Origin: Acidimicrobiaceae bacterium
Lineage (GTDB): Bacteria; Actinomycetota; Acidimicrobiia; Acidimicrobiales; JAUTXP01
NCBI GenBank assembly: GCA_030837965.1
Contig: JAUTXP010000064.1
Span: forward strand, 1-34,510
Direction: 5' to 3'
Length of the DNA stretch: 34,510 nucleotides
How positions within the stretch are numbered: the first letter of the stretch is position 1; the number at the start of each line of letters is the position of its first letter. A program made the translations under genes and the position numbers. The notes under the pieces are model-generated. The model did not search any database and was not told the origin of the DNA. It saw only the letters and a list, made by a program, of their open reading frames with translations. Shown here one piece after another: positions 10,736 to 30,496 of this stretch.

Positions 10736-10764
10736 TTGCTCGAACGCGTGTTCGGAATTACGCT
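10736..10764 (+). promoter_or_regulatory. Distal recA promoter with a LexA box in the spacer
   Basis: TTGCTC (10736-10741), 17 nt, TACGCT (10759-10764) form a good sigma-A-type promoter. The sequence CGAACGCGTGTTCG (10741-10754), a perfect CGAAC-N4-GTTCG actinobacterial LexA box, fills most of the spacer, so LexA binding would block it. The promoter begins just after the thpR stop. Confidence 0.85.
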
Positions 10765-10786: not shown

Positions 10787-10809
10787 TTGTTACACCCCCT
10801 CCGTAGGGT
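10787..10809 (+). promoter_or_regulatory. Proximal recA promoter, RecA-NDp/PafBC-like
   Basis: TTGTTACAC (10787-10795), exactly 8 nt, TAGGGT (10804-10809). The arrangement follows the mycobacterial LexA-independent damage promoter (consensus as I recall it: tTGTCRgtg-N8-TAnnnT). Transcription would start near 10816, about 35 nt before the recA ATG. The first 15 nt recur exactly in front of the LysM gene at 23076. Confidence 0.65.
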
Positions 10810-10850: not shown

Positions 10851-11900
10851 ATGGAGCGTGACAAGGCACTCGACATGGCGCTCGGCCAAATCGAGAAGCA
10901 GTTCGGCAAGGGCTCGATCATGCGGATGGGCGAGAACACCCACATGAACGTGGAGGTCATCCCAACCGGGGCCATGTCGCTTGACCTGGCCCTGGGCGTG
11001 GGCGGCCTGCCCCGGGGGCGCGTGGTGGAGATCTACGGCCCTGAGTCGTCGGGCAAGTCGACGCTGGCCATGCATGTCGTGGCCGAGGCCCAGCGCAACG
11101 GCGGCATCTGCGCCTACATCGACGCCGAGCACGCCATGGACCCGGTGTACGCCAGGGCCATCGGCGTGAACATCGACGACATGCTGATCTCCCAGCCCGA
11201 CACGGGTGAGCAGGCGTTGGAGATCGCGGACATGCTGATCCGCTCGGGCGCCCTCGACGTGCTGGTGATCGACTCGGTGGCCGCGCTCACCCCCCGGGCC
11301 GAGATCGAGGGCGAGATGGGCGACAGCCACATGGGGCTCCAGGCCCGGCTCATGTCCCAGGCCCTGCGCAAGATCACGGCCACCCTGAGCCGGTCCAACA
11401 CGATCTGCGTGTTCATCAACCAGCTCAGGGAGAAGATCGGCGTGATGTTCGGCTCGCCCGAGACCACGCCGGGCGGACGGGCCCTGAAATTCTACTCGTC
11501 GGTGCGGCTCGACATCCGCCGCATCGAGTCCATCAAGGACGGCGTCGAGGTGGTGGGCAACCGCACGCGGGTGAAGGTGGTGAAGAACAAGGTGGCCCCG
11601 CCCTTCAAGCAGGCCGAGTTCGACATCATGTACGGCAAGGGCATCAGCCGCGAGGGCTCGGTGCTCGACATCGCCGTGGACCTGGGCATCGCCAAGAAGT
11701 CGGGTGCCTGGTACACGTACGAGGGCGAGCAGCTCGGGCAGGGACGGGAGAACTCCAAGCAGTTCCTGTTCGACAACCCCGAGGTGATGGTGGAGCTCAA
11801 CGACCGCATCCGCAAACAGTCCGGGCTGGACAAGGTGGCCGGAGACGTCCCGCTCGGCCAAGGGGCGGACGACGACGAGCCCTTGGTGCTCAAGGACTGA
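10851..11900 (+). CDS. recA: Recombinase RecA
   Basis: ATP-dependent strand-exchange protein and LexA/SOS co-protease. It has 349 aa, normal length, from ATG with a GAGAGGGG ribosome-binding site about 9 nt upstream. Walker A is GPESSGKST (near 63-71). [28 protein letters not shown] (Walker B and L1 entry) and the [20 protein letters not shown]2 region are all standard. The acidic C-terminal tail ends [10 protein letters not shown]. There is no intein and no adjacent recX. Two promoters of different class control it (10736 and 10787), paralleling the P2 (LexA) and P1 (LexA-independent) layout of mycobacterial recA. Confidence 0.99.
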
Positions 11901-22249: not shown

Positions 22250-22882
22250 TCAGAGGCGGCGCAGGACGGTGACGACCTTGCCGAAGATGGTGACGTCGCC
22301 CGCGTCGAACTCCATGGGTTCGAGCCGTTTGTTTGCTGGAAGCAGGACAACCTTGTTGCCCTTTCGTGAGAACGTCTTCACGGTGGCTTCCTCGCCAGGG
22401 ATCCCGGCGGCCACGATATCGCCCTTGCGGGCTTCGGAGGTCTGTCGCACCACGACGAAGTCGCCGTCGAGGATGCCTGCGTCGATCATCGAGTCCCCTC
22501 GGACTCGCAGCATAAAGAGCTGGCCCTCACCGGTGAAGTCAGCCGGGATGGGCAGCAGTTCCTCGATGTTCTCCTGGGCCAAGACGTCGGTGCCTGCAGC
22601 CACGTCGCCCACCAGGGGCACGAGGCGCGCAGGCCTGCGCTCGGCCATGCCCCCTGAAGCCGGGTCCCACCGCACCTCGATAGCCCGGGGCTTGGTCGGG
22701 TCCCGCCGCAGATAGCCCAGCCGCTGCAACGTGGCCAGGTGGGCGTGGACGGTGGAGGACGAGGTCAAGCCGACGGCCTCGCCGATCTCGCGCACGGAGG
22801 GCGGAAAGCCACGTTCCTGCTGCTGGCGCGCGATGAACTCCAGGATCTCCTGGCGCTTCCCCGTCAGCATGGTCTCGGCCAC
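22250..22882 (-). CDS. lexA: SOS repressor LexA
   Basis: DNA-damage-response repressor that self-cleaves with RecA filaments. It has 210 aa from GTG 22882, which has AAGGAGG just upstream; ATG 22870 (206 aa) is the alternative. The N-terminal winged helix spans KRQEILEFIARQQQERGFPP through SSTVHAHLATLQRLGYLRRD. The autocleavage Ala-Gly pair is in GDVAAGTDV. The S24 catalytic dyad is Ser in RVRGDSMIDAGI and Lys in EEATVKTFSRKG. It is autoregulated: two LexA boxes lie in its promoter and leader. The lexA, LysM gene, nrdR order is the mycobacterial Rv2720-Rv2719c-Rv2718c arrangement. Confidence 0.97.
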   Translation of the reverse strand: MAETMLTGKRQEILEFIARQQQERGFPPSVREIGEAVGLTSSSTVHAHLATLQRLGYLRRDPTKPRAIEVRWDPASGGMAERRPARLVPLVGDVAAGTDVLAQENIEELLPIPADFTGEGQLFMLRVRGDSMIDAGILDGDFVVVRQTSEARKGDIVAAGIPGEEATVKTFSRKGNKVVLLPANKRLEPMEFDAGDVTIFGKVVTVLRRL

Positions 22883-22896
22883 GCGGCCTCCTTGTC

Positions 22897-22954
22897 CGAA
22901 CGTCTGTTTGCGACACCGTAACAGCCCGTTGGGCGCATGCCAAACATTTGTTCG
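22897..22954 (-). promoter_or_regulatory. lexA promoter with two LexA boxes
   Basis: On the minus strand, TTGGCA (22943 to 22938), 17 nt, TACGGT (22920 to 22915) forms a strong promoter with a predicted start near 22908. The LexA box at 22941-22954 (plus strand CAAACATTTGTTCG) overlaps the -35. A second box at 22897-22910 (CGAACGTCTGTTTG) covers the first transcribed bases. Each deviates from CGAAC-N4-GTTCG by one outer base. Confidence 0.85.
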
Positions 22955-22962
22955 ATTTTTTC

Positions 22963-23013
22963 TTGACGTTGGGCCCCGACCGTGGGCATGCTGGCTACCC
23001 GAACAGCCGTTCG
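22963..23013 (+). promoter_or_regulatory. LexA-controlled promoter of the LysM gene
   Basis: TTGACG (22963-22968), 18 nt, CATGCT (22987-22992). A perfect LexA box, CGAACAGCCGTTCG (23000-23013), lies at the predicted transcription start. The shared box at 22941-22954 sits just upstream of the -35. Confidence 0.75.
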
Positions 23014-23075
23014 ATAAGTCGGCAAGCGCCCGGGCGACGATCCCGGCGAGGGGCGCCGGGATCGGCGGGACGTAG

Positions 23076-23098
23076 TTGTTACACCCCCTCGTTACAAC
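23076..23098 (+). promoter_or_regulatory. Second LysM-gene promoter, RecA-NDp/PafBC-like
   Basis: TTGTTACAC (23076-23084), exactly 8 nt, TACAAC (23093-23098), then 6 nt to the ATG. The first 15 bases are identical to the element in front of recA (10787). The last -10 base is C instead of T. Transcription from it would be leaderless. Confidence 0.6.
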
Positions 23099-23104
23099 GG
23101 GGCC

Positions 23105-23542
23105 ATGAACACGCAGCAAGGAGTCGAGATGGTTGCACTGCCTCAGCCTCGGATGCATCGGCATCTGCGGCTGGTCACGGACGACGAAGTTCTGGGCGGG
23201 ATCGAGGGCGGGATGGCGAGCGGGCGGGGGGCCGACCTGGCCTTCCTGCGGCGGAGGATCGCGGCGGTGGCCTTGGCCGTTGCGTTGCTGATCGCCGTGG
23301 GCCTGGCCTTGGGCCGGGCAGGCAACGCGGCCGAGCGGGCCGCAACGGTGCCGATGGAGCAGGGCGAGGTGGCCGCCCTGCCCATCGCGCAGGGCGCGTA
23401 TGTCGTGCAGCCGGGCGACACGCTGTGGAAGATCGCACGGGCCCTTCAGCCCACGGGCGACGTGCGGCCCCTTGTCGCCCAGTTGGGACGGGTGCGCCAC
23501 GGCGCGCCCCTTCGAGTGGGGGAGCGGATCATGCTGCCGTAG
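23105..23542 (+). CDS. SOS-induced LysM membrane protein, probable division suppressor
   Basis: 145 aa: a 47-residue cytoplasmic N-terminus, one membrane helix (about 51-70, RIAAVALAVALLIAVGLALG), a short linker and a C-terminal LysM domain (99-145) beginning YVVQPGDTLWKIARAL. The position between lexA and nrdR, divergent from lexA, matches mycobacterial Rv2719c (ChiZ). The architecture matches the wider group of SOS division inhibitors (YneA, DivS). It has both a LexA-box promoter and a LexA-independent damage-type promoter. It should bind peptidoglycan near the septum and delay division during DNA damage; this is inferred from synteny, domains and regulation. Confidence 0.85.
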   Translation: MNTQQGVEMVALPQPRMHRHLRLVTDDEVLGGIEGGMASGRGADLAFLRRRIAAVALAVALLIAVGLALGRAGNAAERAATVPMEQGEVAALPIAQGAYVVQPGDTLWKIARALQPTGDVRPLVAQLGRVRHGAPLRVGERIMLP

Positions 23543-23631: not shown

Positions 23632-24099
23632 GTGCGCTGTCCTGCATGCTCGGCGCTCGACGACAAGGTCGTCGACTCGCGAACTGCTGAGGATGGGGCG
23701 GCCATTCGACGCAGGCGGGAGTGCCTGATGTGCGGGTGGCGGTTCACCACGTTCGAGCGGCTGGAAGAGGTGCCGGTCATCGTGGTGAAGCGGTCCGGGC
23801 ACCGCGAGCCCTTCGACCGGGCCAAGATCGTCGCCGGCCTGCGGGCCGCGACCAAGAACAGGCCAGTCCTGCCCCAGCATCTCGAAGCCCTTGCTGGGCA
23901 GGTGGAGGAACAGCTTCGGCTGGAAGGACAGGTGACCAGCCAGCAGGTCGGGGTGGCCGTGCTGGAGCGCCTGCGTGATCTGGACGACGTGGCGTATGTG
24001 CGATTCGCCAGCGTGTACAAGGGCTTCGAGGACGTGGGCGACTTCACCAGGGAGTTGCACCTGTTGACCAAGTCAACCGAGCCCAAGCAGCCGACCTAA
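23632..24099 (+). CDS. nrdR: Ribonucleotide reductase transcriptional repressor NrdR
   Basis: Zinc-ribbon plus ATP-cone repressor of ribonucleotide reductase genes. It has 155 aa from GTG 23632, giving the classic VRCPACSALDDKVVDSR N-terminus. Zinc cysteines are C3, C6, C31 and C34 (CLMCGWRFTTFER). The ATP-cone follows from VIVVKRSGHREPFDRAKIVAG to about 140. An ATG at 23599 would add 11 residues, but TAGGGT (23619-23624) ends 7 nt before the GTG, favouring a leaderless start. No ribonucleotide reductase gene is adjacent. Confidence 0.95.
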   Translation: MRCPACSALDDKVVDSRTAEDGAAIRRRRECLMCGWRFTTFERLEEVPVIVVKRSGHREPFDRAKIVAGLRAATKNRPVLPQHLEALAGQVEEQLRLEGQVTSQQVGVAVLERLRDLDDVAYVRFASVYKGFEDVGDFTRELHLLTKSTEPKQPT

Positions 24100-29693: not shown

Positions 29694-30480
29694 CTGCCTC
29701 CAACAAGGCGCACAGGCCTTCGAACAACGGGGGCGGGGCGGCCACCACGGTTCCGTCCTCCTGCCTGGCTACCAAGGCCCCTGCCTCGGTCGCCACCACC
29801 GCGCCCGCGGCCAGGTCCCACGGCTGCAGGCCCCGCTCGAAGAAGCCGTCGAGCCTGCCTGCGGCCACCCAGCACAAGTCGAGCGCGGCTGCGCCCGCCC
29901 GCCGAATGTCCCGGACCGATGGAAGCACGAACGCCAGCTCGTCGGCCTGTCGGCGCCTGTTGGCCGCGTCGTAGCTGAACCCGGTGCCAACCAACGCGGT
30001 GGCCAGGTCGGGCGCCATCGACGGGCGGTCGATGACGAGGGGCGCGCCGTTGAGCCACGCGCCGCCGCCCCGCCGGGCCGAAAAGGTCTCGCCGTGCACG
30101 GGGTCGTGGACCACGCCGACCATGGGCACGCCGTCCACCTCGGCCGCGATGGACACGCCGTAGGCGGGGAAGCCGTACAGGTAGTTGGTGGTCCCGTCGA
30201 GCGGGTCGACCACCCATCGCACCCCGCTCACGCCGGGCGACGCTGTGCCTTCCTCGCCCAGCACCGCGTCGTGGGGCCGGCGCCTGCGCAGCCCCTCCAC
30301 GATGAGGGCCTCGCTGGCCCTGTCCATCTCGGTGACCATGTCCGTGCGGGTCGACTTCGTCTCGACCGTGGTCCTCGCTCTCGCCTCACCCTCGCGCAGC
30401 GCCCGCCCGGCCGACAGGGCCAGGTCCACGGCGATGGCCAGCAGGTCCTCGGTGTCGGCCGGCCCGGACGTTGTTGTCAC
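29668..30480 (-). CDS. Inositol monophosphatase family protein
   Basis: Mg-dependent Li-sensitive-type phosphatase, 270 aa. Metal-site motifs: ETKSTRTDMVTEMD, VLGEEG (Glu), the signature WVVDPLDGTTNYLYGFP, and GLQPWDLAAGAVV (second signature Asp). Substrates in the family are inositol-1-phosphate, histidinol phosphate or fructose-1,6-bisphosphate; the sequence alone does not decide. The start is GTG 30480, with TAGACC (30492 to 30487) 6 nt upstream on this strand, overlapping the -10 of the divergent ltaE gene. Only 22 bp separate the two start codons. Confidence 0.9.
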   Translation of the reverse strand: MTTTSGPADTEDLLAIAVDLALSAGRALREGEARARTTVETKSTRTDMVTEMDRASEALIVEGLRRRRPHDAVLGEEGTASPGVSGVRWVVDPLDGTTNYLYGFPAYGVSIAAEVDGVPMVGVVHDPVHGETFSARRGGGAWLNGAPLVIDRPSMAPDLATALVGTGFSYDAANRRRQADELAFVLPSVRDIRRAGAAALDLCWVAAGRLDGFFERGLQPWDLAAGAVVATEAGALVARQEDGTVVAAPPPLFEGLCALLEAARSRARGG

Positions 30481-30496
30481 ACCCCAGGTCTACCCT
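30474..30496 (+). promoter_or_regulatory. RecA-NDp/PafBC-like promoter of ltaE
   Basis: TTGTCACAC (30474-30482), exactly 8 nt, TACCCT (30491-30496), then 6 nt to the ltaE ATG. It has TTGTCA rather than TTGTTA, so it is closer to the mycobacterial consensus tTGTCRgtg-N8-TAnnnT than the recA or LysM copies here. It overlaps the start codon and -10 of the divergent phosphatase gene, so the two could interfere. Confidence 0.6.

Follow-up and report, generated by a model that had tools for sequence, protein, structure and literature searches.

The interval between lexA and a small LysM gene in an Acidimicrobiaceae genome is very probably the regulatory region of a two-input DNA-damage division checkpoint, in which both LexA and PafBC would control a LysM inhibitor of the ChiZ/DivS/YneA type. 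It lies on a contig of 34,510 nucleotides (JAUTXP010000064.1; the window in the following) from an assembly that is 97.9% complete and 4.2% contaminated. The Acidimicrobiia, to which this bacterium belongs and to which the nearest relatives of its LexA also point, are a large, mostly uncultured class of poorly known soil and water actinobacteria.

We infer that LexA and PafBC bind in this interval, that damage induces the LysM gene and that division is then arrested, as follows. LexA on boxes 1 and 2 (Table 1) would repress lexA itself, and LexA on box 3 would repress the upstream LysM promoter; cleavage of LexA, stimulated by RecA, would release both. Independently, PafBC activated by single-stranded DNA would recruit the housekeeping RNA polymerase to TTGTTACAC-N8-TACAAC, and transcription would begin on the LysM ATG or immediately beside it. 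The product, matching ChiZ/Rv2719c in position and topology, would be a single-pass membrane protein whose extracellular LysM domain restrains septal wall synthesis until completion of repair.

Table 1 Genes, LexA boxes and predicted promoter elements of the lexA-LysM and recA regions (positions in the window)
Feature	Position	Strand	Remarks
LexA box of recA, CGAACGCGTGTTCG	10741-10754	unstranded	perfect match
PafBC-type element of recA, TTGTTACACCCCCTCCGTAGGGT	10787-10809	+	
recA	10851-11900	+	TIGR02012, E 6.8e-172
lexA	22250-22882	-	GTG start 22882, Shine-Dalgarno AAGGAGG; TIGR00498, E 4.6e-68
LexA box 1, CGAACGTCTGTTTG	22897-22910	unstranded	1 mismatch
Predicted lexA -10, TACGGT	22915-22920	-	8/12 with TTGGCA, spacer 17
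Predicted lexA -35, TTGGCA	22938-22943	-	overlapped by box 2
LexA box 2, CAAACATTTGTTCG	22941-22954	unstranded	1 mismatch
Predicted LexA-controlled LysM promoter, TTGACG-N18-CATGCT	22963-22992	+	8/12; weak alone
LexA box 3, CGAACAGCCGTTCG	23000-23013	unstranded	0 mismatches; over start region of the TTGACG-N18-CATGCT promoter
PafBC-type element of LysM gene, TTGTTACAC-N8-TACAAC (-26 motif and -10)	23076-23098	+	full sequence TTGTTACACCCCCTCGTTACAAC
LysM gene (145 aa)	23105-23542	+	PF01476, E 3.2e-5
Second in-frame ATG (23129) with Shine-Dalgarno AAGGAG	23118-23131	+	equals ortholog N-terminus (M9 A11 P13)
nrdR	23632-24099	+	TIGR00244, E 2.6e-50

LexA boxes and promoters in the lexA-LysM interval

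An earlier, sequence-only reading of this DNA had named LexA boxes at 22897, 22941 and 23000, and a scan for CGAAC-N4-GTTCG with at most one mismatch located all three. Shuffled versions of the 222-bp interval held a mean of 0.026 boxes, and even two boxes were reached in none of 2000 shuffles. The clustering extends to related loci: three to six boxes were present in 78 of 80 lexA-LysM intervals (relatives together with the window; 0.025 per locus in shuffles), while one of the remaining loci carried two boxes and the other a single one. The LysM gene thus has a LexA box in its promoter region, as does a LexA-regulated (SOS) gene, and both the box statistics and their conservation in related loci support its predicted control by LexA, which had likewise been proposed.

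The same reading had each box block a promoter. Each box does lie at a predicted promoter or its start region, but the order of the lexA pair had been swapped: since lexA lies on the minus strand, the box at 22941 overlaps the lexA -35 and the box at 22897 covers the lexA start region. The TTGACG-N18-CATGCT promoter is situated 113 nt 5' of the LysM ATG; the PafBC-type element follows 63 bp downstream of the box at 23000 and is not covered by it. As the sigma-70-like sites are modest (8/12) and a stricter sigma-70 scan of the lexA-LysM interval returned no promoter, the boxes are more secure than the individual promoters.

The CGAAC-N4-GTTCG boxes before lexA, recA, a DnaE2-type polymerase and ruvC are the same as those of the actinobacterial LexA/RecA SOS regulon, with no essential difference. 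Perfect boxes (in L115, L118, L121 and L125) precede the genes for the DnaE2-type error-prone polymerase, a UvrC-like exonuclease, a spore-photoproduct-lyase-like radical SAM protein and ruvC.

The LysM protein and its likeness to division inhibitors

The LysM protein has a predicted cytosolic N-terminus, an RRR motif with a transmembrane (TM) helix at about residues 52-70, which hydropathy supports, and an extracellular LysM domain at about residues 97-145. AlphaFold returned a confident LysM beta-alpha-alpha-beta fold (helices 107-114 and 121-131 between the strands, pLDDT about 95) together with a long helix spanning residues 40-79. The top Foldseek matches were mostly LysM proteins, with E values that are not significant because the LysM domain is short. 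Orthologs share the short N-terminus, the RRR-flanked TM helix and the LysM domain (Pfam LysM in 21 of 25 aligned members). Their conserved N-terminus corresponds to M9, which has its own AAGGAG, so that the true start may be either 23105, which would be leaderless, or 23129; the gene may also have both a leaderless and a led start. Downstream lies nrdR, possibly co-transcribed with the LysM gene, and 18 of 27 relatives showed an NrdR signature in this flank.

A single TM helix followed by an extracellular LysM domain, as predicted here for the product of a gene beside lexA, is characteristic of proteins of the ChiZ/YneA type. Inhibitors of this type stop division upon expression and bind components of the divisome such as FtsW, FtsI or FtsQ. 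ChiZ/Rv2719c and DivS inhibit division (PMC3989709), and in YneA the TM segment targets FtsW while the LysM domain blocks septal synthesis (PMC13396833). YneA of Bacillus subtilis and DivS of Corynebacterium glutamicum are SOS-induced division inhibitors encoded near lexA (PMC13396833, PMC3989709). YneA has the same TM-plus-LysM layout as the LysM protein and no PafBC input has been described for it; the comparison with YneA and DivS draws on LysM, layout and place near lexA. At lexA-Rv2719c (chiZ) of Mycobacterium tuberculosis, too, a LysM membrane protein gene adjoins lexA in a LexA-controlled region, and the PafBC input and division inhibition predicted here are reported there. In that species the target of PafBC is the rv2719c operon rather than lexA (PMC8151990); dual control of Rv2719c by LexA and PafBC has thus already been reported, and the two-input circuit as such is known. 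The Acidimicrobiia locus differs in its PafBC element (TTGTYACAC here, TTGTCRGTG there), in having three or more LexA boxes and in belonging to a different, large clade.

By analogy with ChiZ/Rv2719c, DivS and YneA, and in view of its topology and of the gene order lexA-LysM-nrdR, the LysM protein may well suppress division. It could alternatively aid wall repair or remodelling during damage, as an anchor or a hydrolase partner, rather than inhibit division, given that many proteins unconnected with division bind peptidoglycan through LysM domains and that ChiZ has been described as a wall hydrolase (PMC3989709). We consider this unlikely, as no catalytic domain was found in the protein, its 145 residues comprise a TM helix and LysM only, the layout is the same as that of YneA (PMC13396833), and the place beside lexA and nrdR is conserved.

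A PafBC-type element before the LysM gene, recA and repair genes

The sequence-only reading had also placed TTGTTACAC-N8-TACAAC 6 nt before the LysM ATG, with 15 bases in common with an element of recA. Both observations were reproduced: the element ends 6 nt 5' of the ATG at 23105, and the first 15 bases of the two elements are identical. The recA element lies 32 bp downstream of a perfect LexA box. At up to three mismatches the LysM element was the sole match in the window (0.03 expected). Its -10, TACAAC, is without the final T of TAnnnT, and TACAAC recurs in four relatives. A third element in the window, TTGTCACAC-N8-TACCCT (30474-30496), is separated by 6 nt from the ATG of the following gene, which is threonine-aldolase-like and not a repair gene.

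Among 78 lexA loci, the window included, TGTYACACC was directed towards LysM in 37 and towards lexA in none (shuffled mean 0.28), and in most related loci bearing the element the LysM start codon follows 6-8 nt past the -10; roughly one in two of the related intervals has no clear element. In 24 relatives with usable sequence upstream of recA, the LexA box preceded this gene in 23 and the element in 14. This conservation, together with the recurrence of the element before a repair regulon, supports the view that the second promoter is of a damage type. The element matches the LexA/RecA-independent PafBC architecture, so that the LysM gene would answer two pathways. The earlier description of the LysM protein as an SOS effector agrees with the LexA boxes; the second promoter would add an input from outside the SOS response.

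Across the genome, TTGTYACACCC-N6-YAnnnT gave 21 exact matches, compared to none for the reversed control. When up to one mismatch to TTGTTACAC-N8-TAnnnT was allowed, 26 sites were obtained, and at 19 of these an open frame had its start codon 6-9 nt after the -10, compared to 7% at random positions (P = 4e-17). This spacing puts the transcription start on or beside the start codon, and the mRNAs are therefore probably leaderless. As assigned by pattern searches alone, the regulon comprises repair-type genes (sbcD, followed by an SbcC-like gene, recA, uvrB, radA and lhr), nuclease genes (two PD-(D/E)XK nucleases, an RNase-H-like exonuclease and a staphylococcal-nuclease homologue, SNase) and a gene for an AddB-like protein, which was identified by eye and gave no match in a family search. 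It also includes the DNA-uptake genes comEA, followed by comEC (L203:50-2351), comM/YifB (L204:3694-5205) and comF (L096:864-1493), which suggests control of DNA uptake by damage in this genome. After comM, where we expected a DprA-like gene, the frame tested (L204:2821-3681) had no family match. Non-repair genes downstream of the element encode a threonine-aldolase-like protein, a glyoxalase and several unknowns. The element thus occurs before DNA-repair genes, some of them also with SOS boxes, as PafBC promoters do, and on the sequence evidence it is a genome-wide damage-regulon promoter. The LexA and TTGTYACAC regulons have recA and the LysM gene in common.

Two motif dialects and the proposed assignment to PafBC

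The mycobacterial PafBC (RecA-NDp) promoter reads tTGTCRgtg-N8-TAnnnT (PMC5656591); PafBC acts by sigma adaptation at the -26 motif and is activated by single-stranded DNA (PMC11804915). The element shares with this promoter the TTGT core, the 9+8+6 spacing, the TAnnnT -10 at most sites, and recA as a target paired with a LexA box. It differs in the last three letters of the motif (CAC here, GTG there), in the C-rich spacer after the motif and in a regulon that includes comEA-comEC, comF and comM. With CAC in place of GTG it departs from the mycobacterial consensus and is thus a variant rather than a member of it. The exact form TTGTCRGTG-N8-TAnnnT was found neither in this genome nor in the 13 Acidimicrobiia of a phylum-wide sample; at one mismatch, 11 near matches occurred in this genome against 5 in the control. 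In the sample, this form was concentrated in 11 genomes from outside the Acidimicrobiia (148 matches), probably of Streptomyces and Mycobacterium lineages, which had only 0-2 TGTYACACCC matches each. The motif of M. smegmatis has been reported not to be conserved in S. venezuelae (PMC9380542).

Both PafBC subunits are encoded in the genome. PafB has WYL and WCX domains and M. smegmatis PafB as its best solved match (9fnd, E 3.9e-24), and PafC has an HTH_PafC domain (E 1.3e-26), with a match to PafC 7p5x (E 1.6e-31); NCBIfam contains no model naming PafB or PafC proteins. The two genes are adjacent and divergent from the element-bearing sbcD. Across 148 Acidimicrobiia genomes, the density of the element was 2.15 per Mb where PafC was present (control 0.035; 796 matches in 369.5 Mb from 121 genomes, reversed control 13) and 0.36 per Mb where it was absent (control 0.20; 9 matches in 24.9 Mb from 21 genomes, reversed control 5), with some counts inflated by a non-coding repeat in one PafC-bearing family (f34). 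The losses of PafC cluster in two lineages, one of them with genomes of 1 Mb, and the association therefore does not represent many independent events.

In one relative (G080, L145-L172), more than 30 copies of TGTCACACCC-N6-TAnnnT occurred, mostly without a convincing gene after them; we rejected these as regulon sites, as they are mostly a non-coding, apparently family-specific repeat. Two others (G003 and G102) carry the element before AddB-like, sbcD and lhr genes. In the same two (L144-L171) it is repeated before a multicopy DUF222/HNH family, reminiscent of the mycobacterial 13E12 repeats.

PafBC binding to TTGTYACAC is predicted from sequence, and some of the downstream genes are not repair genes, which would also fit a site for another regulator or a general class of leaderless housekeeping promoters, with damage induction through the LexA boxes alone. 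Such an explanation appears quite improbable, since the element has only about 20-30 copies in this genome, with a strong bias to repair genes, has the architecture and core of the PafBC promoter, is nearly absent from genomes without PafC and is mutually exclusive with the mycobacterial form across the phylum. Although the C-rich spacer is low in complexity, a likeness of the recA and LysM elements by chance or as simple GC-rich sequence can practically be dismissed, as the excess over the reversed control, the position before start codons and the conservation of that position in relatives all speak against it.

PafBC control thus remains our preferred reading of the element. On a wider scale, the case is evenly balanced that the DNA address of PafBC changed within Actinomycetota, with TTGTYACAC in Acidimicrobiia and some other classes and TTGTCRGTG in some of the genomes that do not belong to the class, while PafBC in Acidimicrobiia, acting mostly through leaderless mRNAs, directly drives comEA-comEC, comF, comM, radA and the division brake and so couples damage to transformation and a pause in division. 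What appears to be new is the TTGTYACAC dialect, together with its spread and the PafBC control predicted for DNA-uptake genes; a literature search returned nothing relevant on PafBC and competence genes, on damage responses of Acidimicrobiia or on the string TTGTCACAC.

These findings would extend the two-input LexA and PafBC damage checkpoint from mycobacteria to the Acidimicrobiia, whose damage regulon the TTGTYACAC motif allows to be read from sequence. The dialect also supplies a reason why PafBC regulons elsewhere can escape searches that use the mycobacterial form. If the motif is that of PafBC, the switch between TTGTYACAC and TTGTCRGTG would serve as a natural experiment on the change of specificity in a sigma-adapting activator. 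Damage-induced DNA uptake, finally, becomes directly open to testing in these bacteria through the PafBC control predicted for their competence genes.
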